From: Bacillota bacterium
GTDB lineage: Bacteria; Bacillota_E; Symbiobacteriia; Symbiobacteriales; Symbiobacteriaceae
DNA: 8,754 nucleotides
Reading direction: 5' to 3'
Assembly (NCBI GenBank): GCA_003242675.1
Contig: QGVE01000116.1
Location: 1 to 8,754, forward strand
The translations under genes were made by a program, and so were the position numbers. Below are positions 294 to 8,710 of the stretch, piece after piece. A model generated the notes under the pieces. It did not search any database, was not told the DNA's origin, and saw nothing but the letters and a program-made list of their open reading frames with translations. How positions within the stretch are numbered: position 1 is the stretch's first letter; each line of letters begins with the position of its first letter.

Positions 294-502
294 GGGGCCG
301 GCGGCGGGAGAGTCTTCCCCCGAGGGAAGCGCCGAAGGAGCAAGCGGGGGGTTCGGGTCGGACTCCCCGTGAAACTCTCAGGCACCAGGACCGTCGCCTG
401 GGCGCGGATCGCGCCCCCCCGACCTCTGGAGAGCCGCCCTGCGCGGCACCGAAGGAGCAAGGCCTCCCGCACGGCCAAACTCTCAGGTAGGGGAGACAGG
501 GG
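294..502 (+). promoter_or_regulatory. Tandem glycine riboswitch (two aptamers)
   Basis: Two copies of the conserved glycine-aptamer core are visible. Aptamer 1 has GGGAGAG (306-312), GCCGAAGGAGCAA (331-343) and ACTCTCAGGCA (374-384). Its P1 can form from 300-307 (GGCGGCGG) with 391-398 (CCGTCGCC), 8 bp with one G-U. Aptamer 2 has GGAGAG (428-433), ACCGAAGGAGCAA (428-440 region onward) and ACTCTCAGGTA (479-489). Its P1 can form from 423-428 (CCTCTG) with 497-502 (CAGGGG). Glycine riboswitches of this class control glycine-handling genes, which fits the glycine reductase operon that follows. GGGG at 294-297 could pair with the C-run at 417-420 as the leader-linker P0 helix, but this is tentative. 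The linker also holds an extra hairpin at 400-416. Confidence 0.93.
400..416 (+). other. Stable hairpin in the riboswitch inter-aptamer linker
   Basis: GGGCGCG (400-406), loop GAT (407-409) and CGCGCCC (410-416) form a perfect 7-bp, all-GC hairpin directly after P1 of aptamer 1. Linkers in tandem glycine riboswitches are usually short and unstructured apart from the leader-linker kink-turn, so this looks like an inserted element. Whether it forms in the native RNA is not known. Confidence 0.5.
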
Positions 503-533
503 AACGACCAGTTTACTGGATCGTTCCTTTTTT
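499..533 (+). terminator. Riboswitch-controlled intrinsic terminator
   Basis: GGAACGACCAG (501-511) pairs with CTGG (516-519) plus TCGTTCC (521-527), with a bulged A at 520 and a TTTA loop. A run of six T follows (528-533). This is a standard intrinsic terminator. Its 5' base (501-502, and 499-500 if they pair with U528-529) is the same sequence that closes P1 of aptamer 2. Glycine-stabilised P1 should therefore weaken the terminator, giving an ON switch. The terminator lies 38 nt before the trxB start codon. Confidence 0.85.
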
Positions 534-571: not shown

Positions 572-1804
572 ATGGCTGAGCGCTGGGATCTCGTGATCAT
601 AGGCGGCGGCCCTGCCGGTCTGGCGGCGGCGGTCTACGGGGCCCGGGCCCGGATGTCGACCCTGGTCATCGAAAAGGGACGGCCCGGCGGCCAGGCGGCG
701 ACCACCGAGGAGGTCGAGAACTACCCGGGCATCCGCCGCACCACCGGACCCGAATTGATGAATCAGTTCCGGGAGCACGCCGAGGCCCTGGGGGCGAAGA
801 TCGTCCGCGGCGAGGTCGCCTCCGTGGAGCTGGAAGGGCCGATCAAGACGATCCGCACCAAGCAGGGCGAGGTCTACGAGGCCCGCGCGGTCATCCTGTG
901 CCCCGGCGCCGAGCCCCGCATGCTCGGGGTGAAGGGTGAGGCCGAACTCCGCGGCAAGGGCGTCTCGTACTGCGCCACCTGCGACGCCGACTTCTTCACC
1001 GACCTGGACGTGGTGGTGGTGGGCAACGGCGACGCGGCCGTGGAGGAGGCCATCTACCTCACCCGCTTCGCGAGCAGCGTCACCCTGATCTGCATCCACC
1101 CCGAGGGCATCATGGACGCCAACAAGGCCAGCCAGGAGCGGCTCTTCGCCACGCCCAAGATCAAGGTGATCTGGCAGACCGTGGTCGAGGAGATCCAGGG
1201 CGAGGGGCGCGTGGAGAGGGTGGTGCTGCGCCACCTGGGCACCGGCGAGCGGACGGAGCTGCCCTGCGACGGCGTCTTCATCTTCGTCGGGACCACTCCC
1301 CGGACCGAGTTCCTCCGGGGCACCGGGGTCGAGCTGGACGCCAAGGGATACATCATCACCGACCCGGACACGCTGGAGACGAACATCCCCGGCGTCTATG
1401 CCGCCGGCGATGCCCGCCGCAAGTGGCTCAGGCAGATCGTGACGGCTGCCGCCGACGGCGCCATTGCCGCCTGCGCGGCCGAGAAGTTCCTCGCGGAGGA
1501 GGAGCAGGTCCACCGGGAGATCCTGTCCCCCGAGGAGCCGGTGGTGGCGGTCTTCTGGAGCCCGGCCAACCCGCTCTCCCTGCAGGTGCTGCAGGAGGCG
1601 GAGCGCGTCGTCGCCCAGATGGGCGGCCAGGTGCGGCTGGCCCGCATCGACTGCTACAAGTCCACCCGCGCAGCGGCCCGCCTGGGCGTGTTCGACGTGC
1701 CGACGGTGCGCATCTTCCACAAGGGCATTCCCCTGGCCACACTCACCGAGGGCTTCAACCACCTGGAGGAGTGGGTGGTTGGACACTTGCCGGCCAGGAT
1801 CTGA
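572..1804 (+). CDS. trxB: Thioredoxin reductase of the glycine reductase system, with a degenerate C-terminal thioredoxin-like domain
   Basis: This 410-residue flavoprotein is predicted to reduce the thioredoxin that feeds electrons to glycine reductase in the cytoplasm. Residues 1 to about 310 are a low-Mr thioredoxin reductase: FAD-binding GGGPAG (11-16), redox disulfide CATC (134-137), nucleotide-site GNGDAAVEEA (151-160) and the C-terminal FAD motif AAGDARR before RQIVTAAADGAIAA. The arginines that usually bind the NADPH 2'-phosphate (HRRxxxR) are absent; the matching stretch reads HPEGIMD (176-182). The family is usually about 310-320 residues, and the extra 90 or so (about 320-410) resemble the adjacent TrxA. 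WSPANPLS (329-336) aligns with TrxA WSPKCDPC, so both catalytic cysteines are replaced, while the cis-Pro motif VPT (376-378) remains. The start is ATG 572, with GGGAGG at 559-564. It stops 15 nt before trxA. It is the first gene after the riboswitch, and no grdX precedes it. Confidence 0.92.
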   Translation: MAERWDLVIIGGGPAGLAAAVYGARARMSTLVIEKGRPGGQAATTEEVENYPGIRRTTGPELMNQFREHAEALGAKIVRGEVASVELEGPIKTIRTKQGEVYEARAVILCPGAEPRMLGVKGEAELRGKGVSYCATCDADFFTDLDVVVVGNGDAAVEEAIYLTRFASSVTLICIHPEGIMDANKASQERLFATPKIKVIWQTVVEEIQGEGRVERVVLRHLGTGERTELPCDGVFIFVGTTPRTEFLRGTGVELDAKGYIITDPDTLETNIPGVYAAGDARRKWLRQIVTAAADGAIAACAAEKFLAEEEQVHREILSPEEPVVAVFWSPANPLSLQVLQEAERVVAQMGGQVRLARIDCYKSTRAAARLGVFDVPTVRIFHKGIPLATLTEGFNHLEEWVVGHLPARI

Positions 1805-1819
1805 GGAGGTGACCTGCGG

Positions 1820-2140
1820 ATGGTCGAGGTCAATAAGGACAACTTCGAACAGGAGGTGTTGAAGGCGTCGGGCCCGGTCGTGGTCGACTGGTGGAGCCCC
1901 AAGTGCGACCCGTGCATGGCGCTCATGCCGGAGGTCGAGCGGCTGGCCCAGATCTACGGCGACCGGGTGAAGTTCTGCAAGGTCAACGTGCTGGAGAACC
2001 GGCGGCTGGCGATCAGCCAGCGGGTGCTGGGGCTGCCGACCTTCCTGTTCTTCCGTGACGGGGAGAAGGTGGCGGAGCTCGCCGGTCCCGAGGCCTGCAC
2101 GGCGGAGGCCATCGAGGCCGAGCTGAAGCGGCTGGTGTGA
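1820..2140 (+). CDS. trxA: Thioredoxin of the glycine reductase system
   Basis: This 106-residue, single-domain thioredoxin is predicted to carry electrons from TrxB to the selenoprotein components of glycine reductase. The active site is C29-D-P-C32 within WWSPKCDPCMAL, so the usual WCGPC is replaced. Non-canonical active sites are known for thioredoxins of amino-acid-fermenting clostridia that serve glycine reductase. The cis-Pro motif GLPTF is present and the length is normal. The start ATG 1820 is preceded by an almost perfect Shine-Dalgarno (AGGAGGTGA, 1804-1812) that overlaps the trxB stop. Its end overlaps the ribosome-binding region of grdE, so the genes are probably translationally coupled. 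Its sequence around the active site closely matches the degenerate domain on TrxB. Confidence 0.95.
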   Translation: MVEVNKDNFEQEVLKASGPVVVDWWSPKCDPCMALMPEVERLAQIYGDRVKFCKVNVLENRRLAISQRVLGLPTFLFFRDGEKVAELAGPEACTAEAIEAELKRLV

Positions 2141-2154
2141 GGAGGCTGGTGGCG

Positions 2155-3441
2155 ATGAAGCTGGAGTTGGGCCGCATCTTCATTCGTGACGTGCGCTTCG
2201 GTGACGCCACCCGGGTGGAAAATGGCGTCCTCACCATCAACCGGGAGGAGCTCGTCAAGCTGCTCCTGGAGGATGAGCGGCTGACGGCCGTCGAGCTGGA
2301 TATCGCCAAGCCCGGCGAGTCGGTGCGGATCATCCCGGTCAAGGACGTCATCGAGCCGCGGGTCAAGGTCTCGGGCCCGGGCGGCGTGTTCCCCGGGTTC
2401 ATCAGCAAGGTGGAGACGGTCGGCGAGGGCCGCACCCACGCGCTGAAGGGCTGCGCCGTGGTCACCACCGGCAGGATCGTCGGCTTCCAGGAGGGGCTGA
2501 TCGACATGTCGGGCCCCGGCGCGGAGTACACGCCGTTCTCCAAGCTGATCAACGTGACCGTGCACTGCACCCCCCGGGAGGGGCTCACGCAGCACGAGCA
2601 CGAGGCGGCGGTGCGCCTGGCCGGGCTCAAGGCGGCAGCCTACCTGGGCGAGGCGGGGCGCAACGTGGAGCCGGACGAGATCGTCACCTACGAGCACCTG
2701 CCCCTGCCGGAGGCGATCGCCCGCTACCCGCACCTGCCGAAGGTGGTCTACGTCTACATGCTGCAGTCGCAGGGGCTCCTGCACGACACCTACGTCTACG
2801 GCGTGGACGCCAAGCGGATCCTGCCGACCCTGATCTCCCCGACGGAGGTCTTCGACGGGGCCATCGTCAGCGGCAACTGCGTCTCCGCCTGCGACAAGAA
2901 CACCACCTACCACCACCAGAACTCGCCGGTGATCGAGGACCTGTACGCCCGCCACGGCAAGGACATCAACTTCATCGGCGTGGTCATCACCAACGAGAAC
3001 GTGACGCTGGCGGACAAGGAGCGCTCCTCCAGCTACGCCGCCAAGCTGGTGCAGATGCTGGGGGCCGACGGCGCCATCGTCACGGAGGAGGGGTTCGGCA
3101 ACCCCGACACCGACCTGATGATGAACTGCCGCAAGCTGGAGGAGAAGGGCATCAAGACGGTGCTGATCACCGACGAGTACGCGGGGCGGGACGGCGCGTC
3201 CCAGTCCCTGGCCGACGCGACGCCGCACGCCGACGCGGTGGTCTCGGCCGGCAACGCCAACGCCGTCATCGTCCTGCCGCCCATGGAGAAGGTCATCGGC
3301 TATCCCGAGCAGGTGAACGTCATCGCCGGCGGCTGGGAGGGGTCGCTCCGGCCTGACGGCTCCATCGAGGCCGAGATCCAGGTGATCACCGGCGCGACCA
3401 ACGAGCTGGGCTTCTCCTACCTGACGGCCAAGACGATCTAA
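2155..3441 (+). CDS. grdE: Glycine reductase protein B proprotein GrdE (alpha and beta subunits)
   Basis: GrdE is the substrate-binding component of selenoprotein B. In characterised homologues the proprotein cleaves itself at an Asn-Cys bond and the cysteine becomes a pyruvoyl group that forms a Schiff base with glycine. Here the motif SGNCVSACDKN places the processed residue at C242 (codon 2878-2880), the position I recall for the Clostridium sticklandii enzyme. Cleavage would give fragments of 241 and 187 residues, in line with the two known subunits. I chose ATG 2155 (428 residues, MKLELGRIF...), which has GGAGG at 2141-2145 nine nt upstream. The GTG at 2137 would overlap the trxA stop and add six residues lacking their own good ribosome site. 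The glycine riboswitch upstream argues for glycine rather than sarcosine or betaine as substrate. Confidence 0.95.
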   Translation: MKLELGRIFIRDVRFGDATRVENGVLTINREELVKLLLEDERLTAVELDIAKPGESVRIIPVKDVIEPRVKVSGPGGVFPGFISKVETVGEGRTHALKGCAVVTTGRIVGFQEGLIDMSGPGAEYTPFSKLINVTVHCTPREGLTQHEHEAAVRLAGLKAAAYLGEAGRNVEPDEIVTYEHLPLPEAIARYPHLPKVVYVYMLQSQGLLHDTYVYGVDAKRILPTLISPTEVFDGAIVSGNCVSACDKNTTYHHQNSPVIEDLYARHGKDINFIGVVITNENVTLADKERSSSYAAKLVQMLGADGAIVTEEGFGNPDTDLMMNCRKLEEKGIKTVLITDEYAGRDGASQSLADATPHADAVVSAGNANAVIVLPPMEKVIGYPEQVNVIAGGWEGSLRPDGSIEAEIQVITGATNELGFSYLTAKTI

Positions 3442-3512: not shown

Positions 3513-3980
3513 ATGGAACTGAAGGGGAAGAAGGCGATCCTCCTCGGCGACCGGGACGGCATCCCGGGTCCGGCCCTGGAAGCCTGCGTCCGCAGCGCCG
3601 GGGCTGAGGTGGTCTTCGCCTCCACCGAGTGCTTCGTCTGAACGAGCGCAGGGGCCATGGACATGGAGAACCAGCGCAGGATCAAGGAGCTGGCCGAGAA
3701 GTATCCGAAGGAGGACCTGGTGGTCATCCTCGGCGGCGCCGAGGCCGAGGCCTCGGGGCTGGCGGCGGAGACGGTCAGCAACGGCGACCCTGCCTGGGCC
3801 GGTCCACTGGCCGGAGTCCAGTTGGGACTCAAGGCGTACCACATCTTCGAGCCCGAGATCAAGGCGCAGATCGATCCCAAGGTCTACGAGGAGCAGGTCT
3901 CGCTGATGGAAATGGTGCTCGACGTCGACGCGATCGTCCAGGAGGTCCGGTCGATCCGCGAGAAGTACGCCGCCTGGTAA
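3513..3980 (+). CDS. grdA: Glycine reductase selenoprotein A (contains selenocysteine)
   Basis: GrdA is the small carrier protein whose selenocysteine accepts the carboxymethyl group from protein B and delivers it to protein C. The frame runs from ATG 3513 to TAA 3978-3980, 155 residues (usual size for the family), with one internal TGA at 3639-3641. That codon sits in the family signature [16 protein letters not shown], so it is selenocysteine 43 and forms the C40-x-x-U43 redox pair. Sequence on both sides of the TGA is typical GrdA in the same frame, so this is recoding and not a pseudogene. Standard gene calling would report only the downstream part from ATG 3657. The ribosome site is AAAGGAAGTGA just upstream. 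grdB starts 12 nt after the stop. Expression requires selenocysteine machinery (selA, selB, selC, selD) that must be encoded outside the window. Confidence 0.97.
3639..3641 (+). other. UGA selenocysteine codon of grdA (Sec43)
   Basis: The in-frame TGA lies between codons for ECFV and TSAGAMD, exactly where GrdA proteins carry selenocysteine. Three other genes in the window (trxB, trxA and grdCD) end with TGA as a normal stop, so this is a local recoding event and not a genetic-code change. Confidence 0.95.
3655..3666 (+). promoter_or_regulatory. Candidate bacterial SECIS hairpin of grdA
   Basis: CCAT (3655-3658), loop GGAC (3659-3662) and ATGG (3663-3666) form a small hairpin, with 17 nt between the UGA and the loop. 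Bacterial SECIS elements lie just downstream of the UGA, within the coding sequence, with a G near the start of the apical loop. The stem is short (4 bp, or 5 if the loop's G and C pair), so the assignment rests on position and on the similar GGA loop in grdB. Confidence 0.5.
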
Positions 3981-3992
3981 GGGGGGTCACAC

Positions 3993-5282
3993 GTGCGGAT
4001 TGTGCACTATCTCAACCAGTTCTTCGGCGGCATCGGGGGTGAGGAGCACGCCGGCGTGCGGCCCGAGGTGCGCCCCGGCCCGGTGGGGCCGGGCCAGGCG
4101 CTGAAGGCCGCCCTGGGCGACGCCGCGGAGATCGTCGCCACCGTCATCTGCGGCGACTCCTGGTTCAACGAGAACCTGGAGGAGGCCAAGGCGACCGTGC
4201 TCGAGCTGATCCGCCAGCACAACCCCGACCTGGTCGTCGCCGGCCCGGCCTTCAACGCCGGCCGCTACGGCATGGCCTGCGGGGCGGTGGCCGAGGTGGT
4301 CAGCAAGCAGCTGGGCATCCCCGTCGTCACCGGCATGTACAAGGAGAACCCGGGCGTGGAGGTCTACCGCCGGTACGCGTGGGTGGTGGAGACCGGGAAC
4401 TCCGCCGCCTCCATGCGGCAGGCCATCCAGGACATGGCGAACCTGATCAAGCGGCTGGCGGCGGGTCTGGAGCCCGAGCCGGGCACGTACCTGGAGCGGG
4501 GCCTCCGGGTGAACGCCTTCGCCGCCGAGCGGGGTTCCGCCCGGGCGGTGGAGATGCTGGTACGCAAGCTCAGGGGCGAGCCCTTCACCACCGAGTATCC
4601 CATGCCCTCCTTCGACCGGGTGCCGCCGAACCCGCCGGTCAAGGACCTGAGCAAGGCGAAGATCGCCCTGGTCACCTCCGGCGGCATCGTGCCCAAGGGC
4701 AACCCGGACCACATCGAATCCTCCTCGGCATCCAAGTACGGCAAGTACTACCTCGGTGATCTCGACGACCTGACCGCGGAGACCCACCAGACCGCCCACG
4801 GCGGCTACGACCCGACCTACGCCAACGCCGACCCCGACCGGGTGCTGCCGGTGGACGTCATGCGGGAGCTGGAGCGGGAAGGCGTCATCGGCAAGCTGCA
4901 CGACTACTGGTACGCGACGGTGGGCAACGGCACCTCGGTGGCCAACGCCAGGGCCTACGCCCGGGCGATCGCCGAGGACCTCAGGAAGTACGAGGTGGAC
5001 GCCGTCATCCTGACCTCCACCTGAGGGACCTGCACTCGTTGCGGAGCAACGATGGTCAAGGAAATCGAACGGGCGGGCATCCCCGTGGTCCACGTCTGCA
5101 CCGTGGTGCCGATCTCGCTGACCGTGGGCGCCAACCGGATCGTGCCGGCGGTGGCCATCCCGCACCCGCTGGGAAACCCGGCCCTGCCGCCCGACGAGGA
5201 GCGGGCGCTGCGCCGCCGGCTGGTGATGAAGGCCCTGAAGGCGCTCACCACCCCGGTGGAGGGGCAGACGGTGTTCGACTAA
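3993..5282 (+). CDS. grdB: Glycine reductase protein B selenoprotein subunit GrdB
   Basis: GrdB is the selenocysteine-containing subunit of protein B. With GrdE it cleaves the C-N bond of Schiff-base-bound glycine, releasing ammonia and passing a carboxymethyl selenoether to GrdA. The frame runs from GTG 3993 to TAA 5280-5282, 429 residues (close to the family's usual length), with one internal TGA at 5022-5024. That TGA lies in LTSTUGTCTRCGATMVKE, the GrdB signature, so residue 344 is selenocysteine and forms a U344-x-x-C347-x-x-C350 motif. The family N-terminus (MRIVHYLNQFFGGIGGEE) starts at the GTG, with a GGGGGG ribosome site at 3981-3986. The 84 residues after the TGA continue typical GrdB sequence (VVHVCTVVPISLTVGANRIVPA). 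Standard gene calling would split it into a truncated protein and a small fragment from ATG 5052. An intrinsic terminator follows within 10 nt. Confidence 0.97.
5022..5024 (+). other. UGA selenocysteine codon of grdB (Sec344)
   Basis: The in-frame TGA follows codons for ILTST and precedes GTCTRCGATMVKE, the conserved selenocysteine site of GrdB. The true stop is TAA at 5280-5282. Both selenoprotein genes here end in TAA. Confidence 0.95.
5036..5052 (+). promoter_or_regulatory. Candidate bacterial SECIS hairpin of grdB
   Basis: TCGTTGC (5036-5042), loop GGA (5043-5045) and GCAACGA (5046-5052) form a perfect 7-bp stem starting 11 nt after the UGA, with 18 nt between UGA and loop. This agrees with the position and the G-containing apical loop expected of bacterial SECIS elements bound by SelB. 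The loop starts with GGA, as in grdA. Confidence 0.7.
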
Positions 5283-5323: not shown

Positions 5324-5377
5324 GCCAGGGGCGGCCTGTGACCAAGCCCCGGCACCCGATCAAGGAGAGTGATGCGC

Positions 5378-8167
5378 ATGACGGAGCCTGTCATCCGCGG
5401 GGCGGCCTACTGCCTGATCCACGCCCCGAACCTGCTCCTGTACTACGGCACCACCCCGGCGATGGAGCGGCGGCTGAACCCCGACAGCCCCTACCTCGCC
5501 AAGCTGCCGCAGCATCTGCGCAGCTACCAGGAGGCCCTGGCCTATCCGCCCAACCAGACCTACCTGGGCCGGCTGCGCCCGGATGAGCTGGCCCGGATCC
5601 CCCGGCCGTGGTACGAGCATCCGATCGAGGGGGCCCAGCGGGAAGCCCGGTACGGCGAGCTGATGCCGGAGGACGAGTTCCTGGCCCTGCTGAAGCTGGT
5701 CGACACCTTCGACCTGGTGCGGCTGGAGGCCGGCTTCGCCGCGGAGATCGCGGAGCGGCTGGCCGCGCACCCGCTCTGGGCCGCCGACGTCCCCCGGCTG
5801 GGCCCCGGCGTGCCGGAGGCCGAGCTGCGGCGGCTGCTGGAGGAAGAGGCCGCGCCGCTCTACCTGGGCGACCGGCTGGTCGGGGTCGTGCGCCGGGCCC
5901 ACGAGCACGACGTGACGCTCTCCAGCCACGTCATGCTGGAGAACCTCGTCACCAAGGCCTCGGCGGTTCTGGGGCTCCGGCACCTCTTCGCCAAGACCGG
6001 CCTGAAGCCCGAAGAGGTCGAGTACATTATTGAGTGCTCCGAAGAGGCGTGCGGCGACATGAACCAGCGGGGCGGCGGCAACTTCGCCAAGGCCATCGGC
6101 GAGATGGCGGGCTGCGTGAACGCCACCGGCTCCGACACCCGCTCCTTCTGCGCCGGCCCTACCCACGCCCTCATCGAGGCGGCGGCCCTGATCAAGTCCG
6201 GCGTCTTCCAGCACGTGGTGGTGCTCGCGGGCGGCACCCCGGCGAAGCTGGGGCTCAACTCCCGGGACCACGTGGCCAAGGGGCTGCCGGTGCTGGAGGA
6301 CGTCATCGGCGCCTTCGCGATCCACCTCTCGGCCGACGACTACGTGAGCCCGCGGGTGCGGCTGGATGCGGTGGGCCGGCACAAGATCGGGTCGGGCTCC
6401 TCGCCCCAGGCGGTGATGGAGGCGCTGGTGACCGAGCCGCTCACCCGGGTCGGGCTGAAGATCTCCGACGTCGACCGCTACGGCGTCGAGATGCAGAACC
6501 CCGAGCTCACCGAGCCCGCGGGCGCGGGGGACGTGCCCCAGGCCAACTACAAGATGATCGCCGCCCTGGCCGTGAAGCAGGGCGAGATCGGCCGGGCGGA
6601 GCTGCCGGCCTTCGTCGCCTCGCACGGCATGCCGGGCTTCGCACCCACCCAGGGCCACATCCCCTCGGGCGTGCCGGTGATCGGCCCCCTGCGGGATGCG
6701 CTGGTGGCCGGCGAGATCCAGCGGGCGATGATCATCGGCAAGGGGTCGCTCTTCCTCGGCCGCATGACCAACCTGTTCGACGGCGTGTCGGTTCTGCTGG
6801 AGCGGAACCCGGGCCGTCCGTCGGCGGAGGCCACGGTGGAGTCCGGCGCAGCGCCGGTCTGCGCCGCCGCTGCCGGCGGGGCCGCCGCGGCGCCCGCTCA
6901 CGCTGCCACTGGCTCGGGGGCGGGTGCGGCCCCGCTTGCGGCCGGCCGTGAGGGCCCGGCGGCCCAGAAGCCCGGGCGGATCGCCGTCGGCATCACCCTG
7001 CACGGCAGCGAGCTGGGCGAGGAGGAGATCCTGCGTGGCGCCGAGCAGGCCCAGCGGCAGTGGCCCGACATCGAGGTCGTGATCATCGGCCGGCCGGCCC
7101 GGCAGACCTCCGTGCGCTGGGTGGAGGCCGGGACCGGATGCCTCGCCGACGAGCACCAGGCGATGGAGCGGCTGCTCGCCTCGGGCGAGCTGGCGGCAGC
7201 CGTGACCCTGCACTACGCCTTCCCGATCGGCGTCGCCACGGTGGGCAGGGTGATCACCCCCGCCCGGGGCCGCGAGATGCTGATCGCCACGACCACCGGC
7301 ACGGCCGCGGCCGACCGGGTCGAGGCGATGGTGCGCGCCGCGATCGGCGGCATCGCCGTCGCCCGGACCCTGGGGATCGCGGAGCCGGCGGTGGGCATCC
7401 TGAACGTGGACGGCGCCCGCCAGGTGGAGCGCATCCTGGAGGCCTTGCGCCAGGGCGGCTACCCGCTCCGGTGGGCGGCCTCCGGCCGGTCCGACGGCGG
7501 CGTCCTGATGCGGGGCAACGACGTGCTCACCGGCGAGCCCGACGTGCTGGTCACCGACAGCCTGACCGGCAACCTGCTCATGAAGCTGCTCTCGGCCCAG
7601 TCCACCGGCGGAAACTACGAGGCGACGGGCTACGGCTACGGCCCCGGCGTCGGCCCGGAGATGCGGCAGATCGTGCACATCATCAGCCGGGCCTCGGGCG
7701 CGCCGGTGATCGCCGGGGCGATCCGCTACGCCGCCGACATGGCCCGGGGCGGGCTGGTGCGGGTCGTGGCCGAGGAGTACGAGCGGGCCCGGGCCGCGGG
7801 GCTGGAGCGGCTGCTGTCGGAGCGGCGCGGCGCTGCCCGTGCGCCGGCCGGTCCGGCCGCGGAGCGGGATGCCCAGGCAGGCGCGCCGTCCGGCGTGGTG
7901 CAGGCCGCCCAGGGCGCCCTGGCGGCAGGCGAGCCGGACGGCGGCCGGAGCGCGCCGGCACAGGCGGCACCGCCGCCGGAGAAGGTGGCGACGGCCGAGA
8001 TCCCGGGGGTGGACATCCTCGAACTGGAGGAGGCCGTGGCCTGCCTCTGGCGCCGGGGCATCTACGCCAAGTCCGGCATGGGCTGCACGGGCCCCGTGGT
8101 GCTCGTGGCCGAAGAGGACCTGGAGGCCGCGCGGGCCGTGCTCCGGGAGGCCGGGTTCATCGGGTGA
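5378..8167 (+). CDS. grdC/grdD: Fused glycine reductase protein C, GrdC-GrdD (acetyl phosphate-forming component)
   Basis: Protein C normally consists of two separate subunits, GrdC and GrdD; here one 929-residue frame holds both. Residues 1 to about 488 are GrdC, a thiolase/KAS-III-like fold, with candidate nucleophile C258 (RSFCAGPTHA) and H416 in ASHGMPGFAPTQGHIPSG. An Ala/Gly-rich linker (about 489-530) has no counterpart expected in GrdC. From 531 (KPGRIAVGITLHGSE) the protein is GrdD, PlsX-like, with C588 in GTGCLADEHQ and DSLTGNLLMKLL near 727. A second Ala/Pro-rich linker (about 818-873) leads to a terminal segment with C903 in SGMGCTGP, 27 residues from the end. It matches the GrdD thiol (Cys359 in Eubacterium acidaminophilum) shown to release acetyl phosphate. 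I chose ATG 5378 (MTEPVIRGAAY), 10 nt after AAGGAG at 5362-5367. ATG 5372 or GTG 5369 would add two or three residues. Confidence 0.93.
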   Translation: MTEPVIRGAAYCLIHAPNLLLYYGTTPAMERRLNPDSPYLAKLPQHLRSYQEALAYPPNQTYLGRLRPDELARIPRPWYEHPIEGAQREARYGELMPEDEFLALLKLVDTFDLVRLEAGFAAEIAERLAAHPLWAADVPRLGPGVPEAELRRLLEEEAAPLYLGDRLVGVVRRAHEHDVTLSSHVMLENLVTKASAVLGLRHLFAKTGLKPEEVEYIIECSEEACGDMNQRGGGNFAKAIGEMAGCVNATGSDTRSFCAGPTHALIEAAALIKSGVFQHVVVLAGGTPAKLGLNSRDHVAKGLPVLEDVIGAFAIHLSADDYVSPRVRLDAVGRHKIGSGSSPQAVMEALVTEPLTRVGLKISDVDRYGVEMQNPELTEPAGAGDVPQANYKMIAALAVKQGEIGRAELPAFVASHGMPGFAPTQGHIPSGVPVIGPLRDALVAGEIQRAMIIGKGSLFLGRMTNLFDGVSVLLERNPGRPSAEATVESGAAPVCAAAAGGAAAAPAHAATGSGAGAAPLAAGREGPAAQKPGRIAVGITLHGSELGEEEILRGAEQAQRQWPDIEVVIIGRPARQTSVRWVEAGTGCLADEHQAMERLLASGELAAAVTLHYAFPIGVATVGRVITPARGREMLIATTTGTAAADRVEAMVRAAIGGIAVARTLGIAEPAVGILNVDGARQVERILEALRQGGYPLRWAASGRSDGGVLMRGNDVLTGEPDVLVTDSLTGNLLMKLLSAQSTGGNYEATGYGYGPGVGPEMRQIVHIISRASGAPVIAGAIRYAADMARGGLVRVVAEEYERARAAGLERLLSERRGAARAPAGPAAERDAQAGAPSGVVQAAQGALAAGEPDGGRSAPAQAAPPPEKVATAEIPGVDILELEEAVACLWRRGIYAKSGMGCTGPVVLVAEEDLEAARAVLREAGFIG

Positions 8168-8257: not shown

Positions 8258-8710
8258 ATGGCATCCTGGCTGATCTGGCTGCTCATCATCCTGGGCGGCG
8301 TGGCGGGTGCGGTGCAGGCGCCGGTCAACGCCACGCTGGCCCAGCACATCCGGCCCATTCCGGCCTCGCTGGTTTCGTTCATCGTCGGCGGCACCGCCCT
8401 GCTCGTGCTGACCCTGTTCAGCCTGCGGGGGCAGGGGCTCGCCAGCCTCGGCCAGGGGCTGGCGAGCGCACCGCCCTGGAGCTTCCTGGGCGGCCTGTGC
8501 GGGGCGACGGTGGTCAGCGCCGTCATCGTGGGCACCGGCAAGCTCGGCGCCAACGCCACGCTGAGCCTCCTGACCGGCGTGCAGCTGATCGCGGCCCTGG
8601 TGATCGACGCCGTCGGCTTCGGCACCGCCGGGCCGATCCCGATCCGCTGGCCGCAGGTGGTCGGCGTGCTGCTGATCATCGGCGGCATGAAGCTGGTGCT
8701 GTCGCGGTAG
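8258..8710 (+). CDS. DMT-superfamily membrane protein, YdcZ/DUF606-like
   Basis: This 150-residue, very hydrophobic protein has about five membrane helices: roughly residues 3-22, 30-52, 70-90, 95-117 and 132-148. The N-terminal stretch GGVAGAVQAPVNATLAQHI, the PASLVSFIVGGTALL segment and the final GVLLIIGGMKL resemble YdcZ (DUF606) proteins of the drug/metabolite transporter superfamily, which are about 140-150 residues and lack settled substrates. The start ATG 8258 (MASWLIW) has AAGGAGG at 8244-8250 with 7-nt spacing; an upstream ATG at 8210 would add an implausible cysteine-rich N-terminus. It follows grdCD on the same strand by 90 nt and is closed by a terminator-like hairpin, so it may be co-transcribed. 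A role in moving glycine, a related amine or acetate is possible but not shown. Confidence 0.8.
   Translation: MASWLIWLLIILGGVAGAVQAPVNATLAQHIRPIPASLVSFIVGGTALLVLTLFSLRGQGLASLGQGLASAPPWSFLGGLCGATVVSAVIVGTGKLGANATLSLLTGVQLIAALVIDAVGFGTAGPIPIRWPQVVGVLLIIGGMKLVLSR

Follow-up and report, generated by a model that had tools for sequence, protein, structure and literature searches.

Protein C of glycine reductase takes up an acetyl group and makes acetyl phosphate, for which it uses Cys359 of its GrdD subunit; in E. acidaminophilum this residue is reportedly the acetyl-carrying thiol. The closest systems are those in which protein C is encoded by two genes, as in Acetoanaerobium noterae (L084) and 'Candidatus Formimonas warabiya' (L006). 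In A. noterae the Cys of the GMGC motif is residue 356 of the 388-residue GrdD, near position 359 of the E. acidaminophilum protein. The same two subunit families are found in the window (the whole stretch of 8,754 nucleotides analysed here), where they are joined in a single protein; the two-gene proteins carry terminal helices at both ends where the subunits meet, whereas the fusion in the window is without them.

The fusion gene belongs to a glycine reductase operon in which the selenoproteins GrdA and GrdB, GrdE and a thioredoxin system are all present, preceded by a tandem glycine riboswitch (Table 1). At the threshold of Rfam a SECIS element was recognized in grdB only, and none was matched for grdA.

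Table 1. Features of the glycine reductase operon and of the GrdC-GrdD fusion in the window
Feature	Position	Strand	Basis
Two tandem glycine riboswitch aptamers, upstream of the operon	295..509	+	Rfam RF00504, 64.5 and 45.4 bits
Thioredoxin reductase-like protein with extra thioredoxin-like C-terminal domain	572-1804		Pfam Thioredoxin at 310-392, 23.5 bits, at cut-off
Separate thioredoxin, unusual active-site stretch WWSPKCDPC	1820-2140
grdE	2137..3441	+	PF09338, 734.7 bits
grdA, in-frame TGA (Sec) at 3639-3641	3513..3980	+	PF04723, 265.3 bits, TGA read as Sec
grdB, in-frame TGA (Sec) at 5022-5024	3993..5282	+	PF07355, 550.7 bits
SECIS element in grdB	5025-5062	+	RF01990, 57 bits
Fusion gene, glycine reductase protein C	5378..8167	+	Open frame; NCBIfam GrdC 755 bits, GrdD 494.4 bits
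GrdC body, KASIII/thiolase-like fold (residues 1-477)	5378..6808	+
Codon of invariant Cys258	6149..6151	+	Cys in all 200 aligned rows
Linker 1, Ala/Gly/Pro-rich (residues 478-533)	6809..6976	+	Composition; AF2 pLDDT; no tail or head profile match
GrdD PlsX-like core (residues 534-822)	6977..7843	+
Linker 2, Ala/Gly/Pro-rich (residues 823-865)	7844..7972	+	Composition; AF2 pLDDT under 50 over 827-860
C-terminal Cys domain, strand-helix-strand-strand-helix (residues 866-929)	7973..8164	+	Fragment folding
Codon of invariant Cys903, part of GMGCTGP and placed between two Cys-domain strands	8084..8086	+	Cys in 200 of 200 rows; secondary structure
YdcZ-type membrane protein, downstream of the fusion gene	8258-8710		PF04657, 107.2 bits

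As a side observation, the extra domain of the thioredoxin reductase-like protein has FWSPANPL in place of the expected CxxC. A pattern search found such a gene at 15 loci, with the extra length in L115, L006 and L010 and in its short form at the other 12.

GrdC and GrdD are joined in one uninterrupted frame of 929 residues plus stop. The frame is open from a GTG at 5369 to the stop at 8165-8167, and the ATG at 5378 was taken as the start because homologues begin with MTEPV or similar. The GrdC model of NCBIfam (reduct_C_beta, NF040746) matches residues 4-477 over profile positions 1-476 of 477 at 755 bits against a cut-off of 450, and the GrdD model (reduct_C_alpha, NF040747) reaches 494.4 bits against a cut-off of 350 in two stretches, the better of which aligns residues 533-822 with profile positions 23-309, so that the first 22 positions of the GrdD profile are absent. 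This bears out the original prediction that a single frame joins a full GrdC to GrdD. When the whole protein was searched against a database with only lengths of 0.55-1.75 times that of the query admitted, a rule that favours fusions, 7998 candidates were scored and 4472 matched with E < 0.001; the 120 matches listed, the window's own protein included, are 819-974 aa long and contain PF19364 and PF02504 in all cases. Fused proteins are therefore already present in databases, where they are filed under the names of the subunits.

A lost stop codon or a frameshift in sequencing or assembly could also join two genes, and the split form is indeed the characterized one and dominates the Clostridia-class sample, where 44 of 44 near-full-length GrdD matches lie in frames of 383-443 aa. 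The same open frame is, however, shared by relatives from other assemblies (stop-to-stop lengths of 878 in L001, 919 in G130 and 1085 in G129), among which G130 is a single-contig genome of 3,566,135 bp, and a joining error would have kept both terminal helices, neither of whose profiles matches the window. Since these relatives share the fusion, assembly error is excluded and the fusion is confirmed as real; the chance of an artefact is practically negligible, and the frameshift or missing stop/start at the junction that had been named as a possible refutation finds no support.

The layout shown by sequence and model runs from a KASIII-like GrdC body through an apparently flexible linker to a PlsX-like GrdD core, and from there through a second such linker to a small Cys domain. 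Linker 1 contains 22 Ala, 10 Gly and 7 Pro among its 56 residues, longer than the roughly 40 residues originally proposed, and its GC3 is 0.84 compared with 0.96-0.98 in the three folded parts. It occupies the place taken in split pairs by the GrdC tail helix, the stop, the start and the GrdD head helix. An AF2 model built with 103 fused rows gave a mean pLDDT of 87.4, with values below 50 at residues 224-232 and 461-463 of the GrdC body, 484-531 and 827-860, and both linkers are accordingly predicted to be disordered. As the pTM of the whole chain is only 0.60, the placement of the domains is not fixed by the model. The last 68 residues (862-929) folded alone to a pLDDT of 96.2 and a pTM of 0.84. 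Linker 2 and the separate Cys domain had been missed in the original prediction, as had the loss of the terminal helix of GrdC. Between aligned positions 816 and 878, the window has 61 residues and the 48 split rows have 23-30; fused proteins overall span 19-84, many being as short as 21.

Fold comparison relates the GrdC body to chains of KASIII/thiolase type and the GrdD core, which has a PlsX-type domain and fold, to PlsX. The only PlsX model among the NCBIfam matches listed for the protein, NF010419, scores 19.5 bits against a cut-off of 729, and the core is therefore a relative of PlsX and not PlsX proper. Among the cysteines of the window, only Cys258 and Cys903 are kept in all 200 aligned rows. 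The position of Cys258 within the KASIII-like match leads us to infer that it is a KASIII-type nucleophile; Cys903 presumably matches the acetyl-accepting Cys359 of GrdD.

The junction was compared between fused and split proteins. Between aligned positions 477 and 535, all 48 split rows have 60-75 residues, whereas 149 of the 152 fused rows (141 of them distinct) have 8-31 and the other three have 55, 57 (the window) and 74; among 23 further rows picked by hand, the junction measures 12-30 residues in 8 fused and 58-76 in 15 split proteins. Split GrdC ends with an amphipathic helix, the tail (consensus ..GVSEEEVKxMIAEAMRxFAxxL), and split GrdD starts with another, the head (consensus ..IxKxIAxxFxEIAxALETGSFGK). 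The tail profile recognizes 48 of 48 split rows, which are also the rows it was built from, and none of the 152 fused rows, the window included. The head profile likewise finds all 48 rows of its building set and only three fused rows (L002, L003 and P0025), in which a truncated remnant aligns with the distal profile positions 14-29 only; the window is without a match. The expectation that a linker had replaced the helical start of GrdD thus held. What the present analysis specifically adds is the two-linker layout and the loss, on fusion, of the tail and, wholly or for the most part, of the head helix.

Both helices were also found outside the building set. In 30 sampled split loci of the Clostridia class (L119-L148) the profiles detected 30 tails and 29 heads, and after removal of the six loci that had served as building rows the independent counts are 24 of 24 and 23 of 24. 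In split loci of the Synergistia class (L162-L181) the profiles find 8 of 20 tails and 3 of 20 heads; the ends inspected there by eye still look tail- and head-helix-like.

A fused gene might still yield two products, through an internal start or proteolysis within linker 1, and a single in-frame GTG (6836-6838) with GGAGG upstream does lie in this linker. L115 has a GTG one residue off that place, after GGAGGAG, and the predicted disorder of both linkers is in keeping with cleavage. L114, however, has no start codon at the corresponding place, and the fused proteins lack the ends found on split subunits, which makes separate GrdC and GrdD products quite unlikely. A single chain would plausibly fix a 1:1 stoichiometry and tether the active sites, the putative effects first suggested for the fusion.

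The tail and head helices resemble each other. Their profiles align with an hhalign score of 26.0 (88.5%). None of 300 column-shuffled tails did as well, the highest score among them being 17.1, and for 152 background windows elsewhere in GrdC and GrdD the maximum was 11.8 when compared with heads and 16.6 with tails. From this resemblance we infer that tail and head form a pseudo-symmetric docking pair. The signal of coevolution between them is only suggestive, because 34 of 2160 background window pairs attain the partial r of 0.24 and one window of the GrdC body gives 0.28 with the head.

The helices could instead serve homo-oligomerization or another partner and have disappeared merely as a by-product of deletion, the usual way in which a fusion forms. 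The weak coevolution would agree with this, as would the partial GrdD helix of L002, L003 and P0025, in which the distal half is retained just as a joining deletion would leave it. The mutual likeness of tail and head, on the other hand, exceeds that of any of the 152 windows to either. Moreover, 36 of the 48 split loci consist of two in-frame open stretches parted by one stop codon, and loss of this stop could therefore fuse the genes with both helices kept and without any deletion, yet the tail is absent from every one of the 152 fused rows. On balance this explanation appears rather unlikely, and docking of the two subunits through the helix pair is the reading that we prefer.

The original prediction had asked how widespread the fusion is. 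Species genomes contributed 80 loci, 32 fused and 48 split, chosen by long single-frame matches, a choice that favours fused genes and same-frame pairs, so that these numbers are no census. For the same reason the shared frame of all 48 split pairs was rejected as evidence, as it is a selection effect. Survey of the class of the Symbiobacteriaceae genome G001 covered 154 genomes and gave strong matches in seven: the protein is fused in G001, G129, G130 and G143, G062 encodes GrdC, with a tail-like end, and GrdD each in a frame of its own, and G006 and G094 have GrdC matches only. In the class of G155 (Anaerophilus, the genome of L012), 45 of 391 genomes match the GrdD family; the near-full-length matches are those in the split-sized frames given above, none of which is therefore fused, and two more are partial.

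In the class of G157 (Treponema), 13 of 248 genomes match the GrdD family, with six split-sized GrdD frames (five next to GrdC and one of GrdD only) and seven frames of 613-902 aa that contain both parts. Separately, it was observed that six divergent fusions from Spirochaetota (L156-L161) score 364-398 bits to the GrdD family, compared with 507-569 for split GrdD and 526 for the fusion of G157 in the same class; they possibly act on a different substrate.

In the class of G158 (Synergistaceae), 119 of 180 genomes match and one, G158 itself, has a clean fusion; the remaining matches are in part fragments and otherwise lie in frames that could not accommodate both parts, apart from G827 and G802. 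G827 was rejected as a fusion, given that it has an 801-aa frame but GrdC lies in a different one, and it is thus split. In G802 (L183) a frame joins GrdC to GrdD with a head-like stretch, but the junction contains an undetermined base and this locus was not counted as a fusion; in G863 (L184), of the same class, several undetermined bases in succession fall at the junction, and this locus was left out of the count. Judged from the sequences compared, fusions are widespread and recurrent, and reading the fusion as a one-off would be wrong.

Two trees were calculated with the junction and linker-2 columns excluded; both are quick, unrooted trees without bootstrap, and long branches may meet among the Spirochaetota rows and L116. 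The tree of 92 rows (44 fused, 48 split) requires nine changes of state, seven of them forced by well-supported branches, and the tree of 115 rows (52 fused, 63 split) again requires nine, of which eight are forced in this way. A single all-fused clade is rejected (p-AU 7.03e-6), and if fusion were irreversible the larger tree would contain 11 all-fused clades. It thus seems, from these trees, that the fusion arose several times in anaerobic bacteria, and horizontal transfer may have spread some of the fusions. The split form could conversely derive from a fused ancestor, as an unrooted tree with nine changes fits gains as well as losses. Every re-splitting would then need to restore alignable helices to the two newly formed ends, and single tail and head profiles recognize the building pairs and nearly all independent Clostridia-class ends alike, which makes this derivation very improbable.

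We consider it probable, with a fair degree of confidence, that the glycine reductase operon in the window is complete and that its protein C is a natural single chain, with docking helices dropped in repeated fusions and a tethered acetyl relay. Where the subunits are split, the tail would pair with the similar head and hold GrdC and GrdD together; once a tether was present the helices would become redundant and could be dropped each time the genes were fused. The relay is suggested by the anatomy of the KASIII-like GrdC body, the PlsX-like GrdD core and the Cys domain. It would begin with the carboxymethyl group that GrdA carries on its selenocysteine; at the GrdC site, at Cys903 or at both, this group would become an acetyl thioester. 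The Cys domain might then swing on linker 2, much as an acyl carrier does, and enter the PlsX-like core, in which phosphate would release acetyl phosphate. The order would thus run from the selenium adduct of GrdA to the GrdC site, to Cys903 on the moving domain and to the PlsX-like core with phosphate. More broadly, though only as a tentative proposal, protein C may be an acetyl-transfer line assembled from parts of fatty-acid synthesis (KASIII-like, PlsX-like, and a mobile bare-Cys domain replacing acyl carrier protein), in which a helix pair has been swapped for a covalent linker many times.

No description of a GrdC-GrdD fusion was found in the literature searched, which included PMC12674515, PMC3091704, PMC1242214, PMC9768040, PMC9312934, PMC2702500 and PMC10838667 and in which subscription journals were mostly outside the search. 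The fusion protein has no match to PDB sequences at E 0.001, and its profile reached five of them, every one of PlsX or KASIII type; there seems therefore to be no solved structure behind the conversion of the carboxymethyl selenoether to acetyl phosphate by protein C. The natural fusions offer a ready single-chain protein for structural studies and draw attention to a single movable Cys domain, and the replacement of a pair of similar helices by a linker amounts to a repeated natural test of docking versus tethering.

Other fused GrdCD proteins, found in Symbiobacteriaceae, Limnochordia, Defluviitaleaceae, some Spirochaetota and Synergistota, and Terrisporobacter, share the order seen in the window, i.e., GrdC body, linker, PlsX-like core and Cys domain, and are without full terminal helices. 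Their junctions are mostly shorter, that of the window being the second longest. Among more distant relatives, the PlsX phosphate acyltransferases (6a1k, 1vi1) are related to the GrdD core and use acyl-ACP, whereas GrdD has a Cys domain of its own. KASIII and FabH have their fold in common with the GrdC body; they catalyze a condensation, whereas the chemistry of GrdC presumably involves a carboxymethyl selenoether. In polyketide synthase docking, the C-terminal helix of one protein meets the N-terminal helix of the next, and the tail and head of split protein C would resemble such an arrangement by analogy only.
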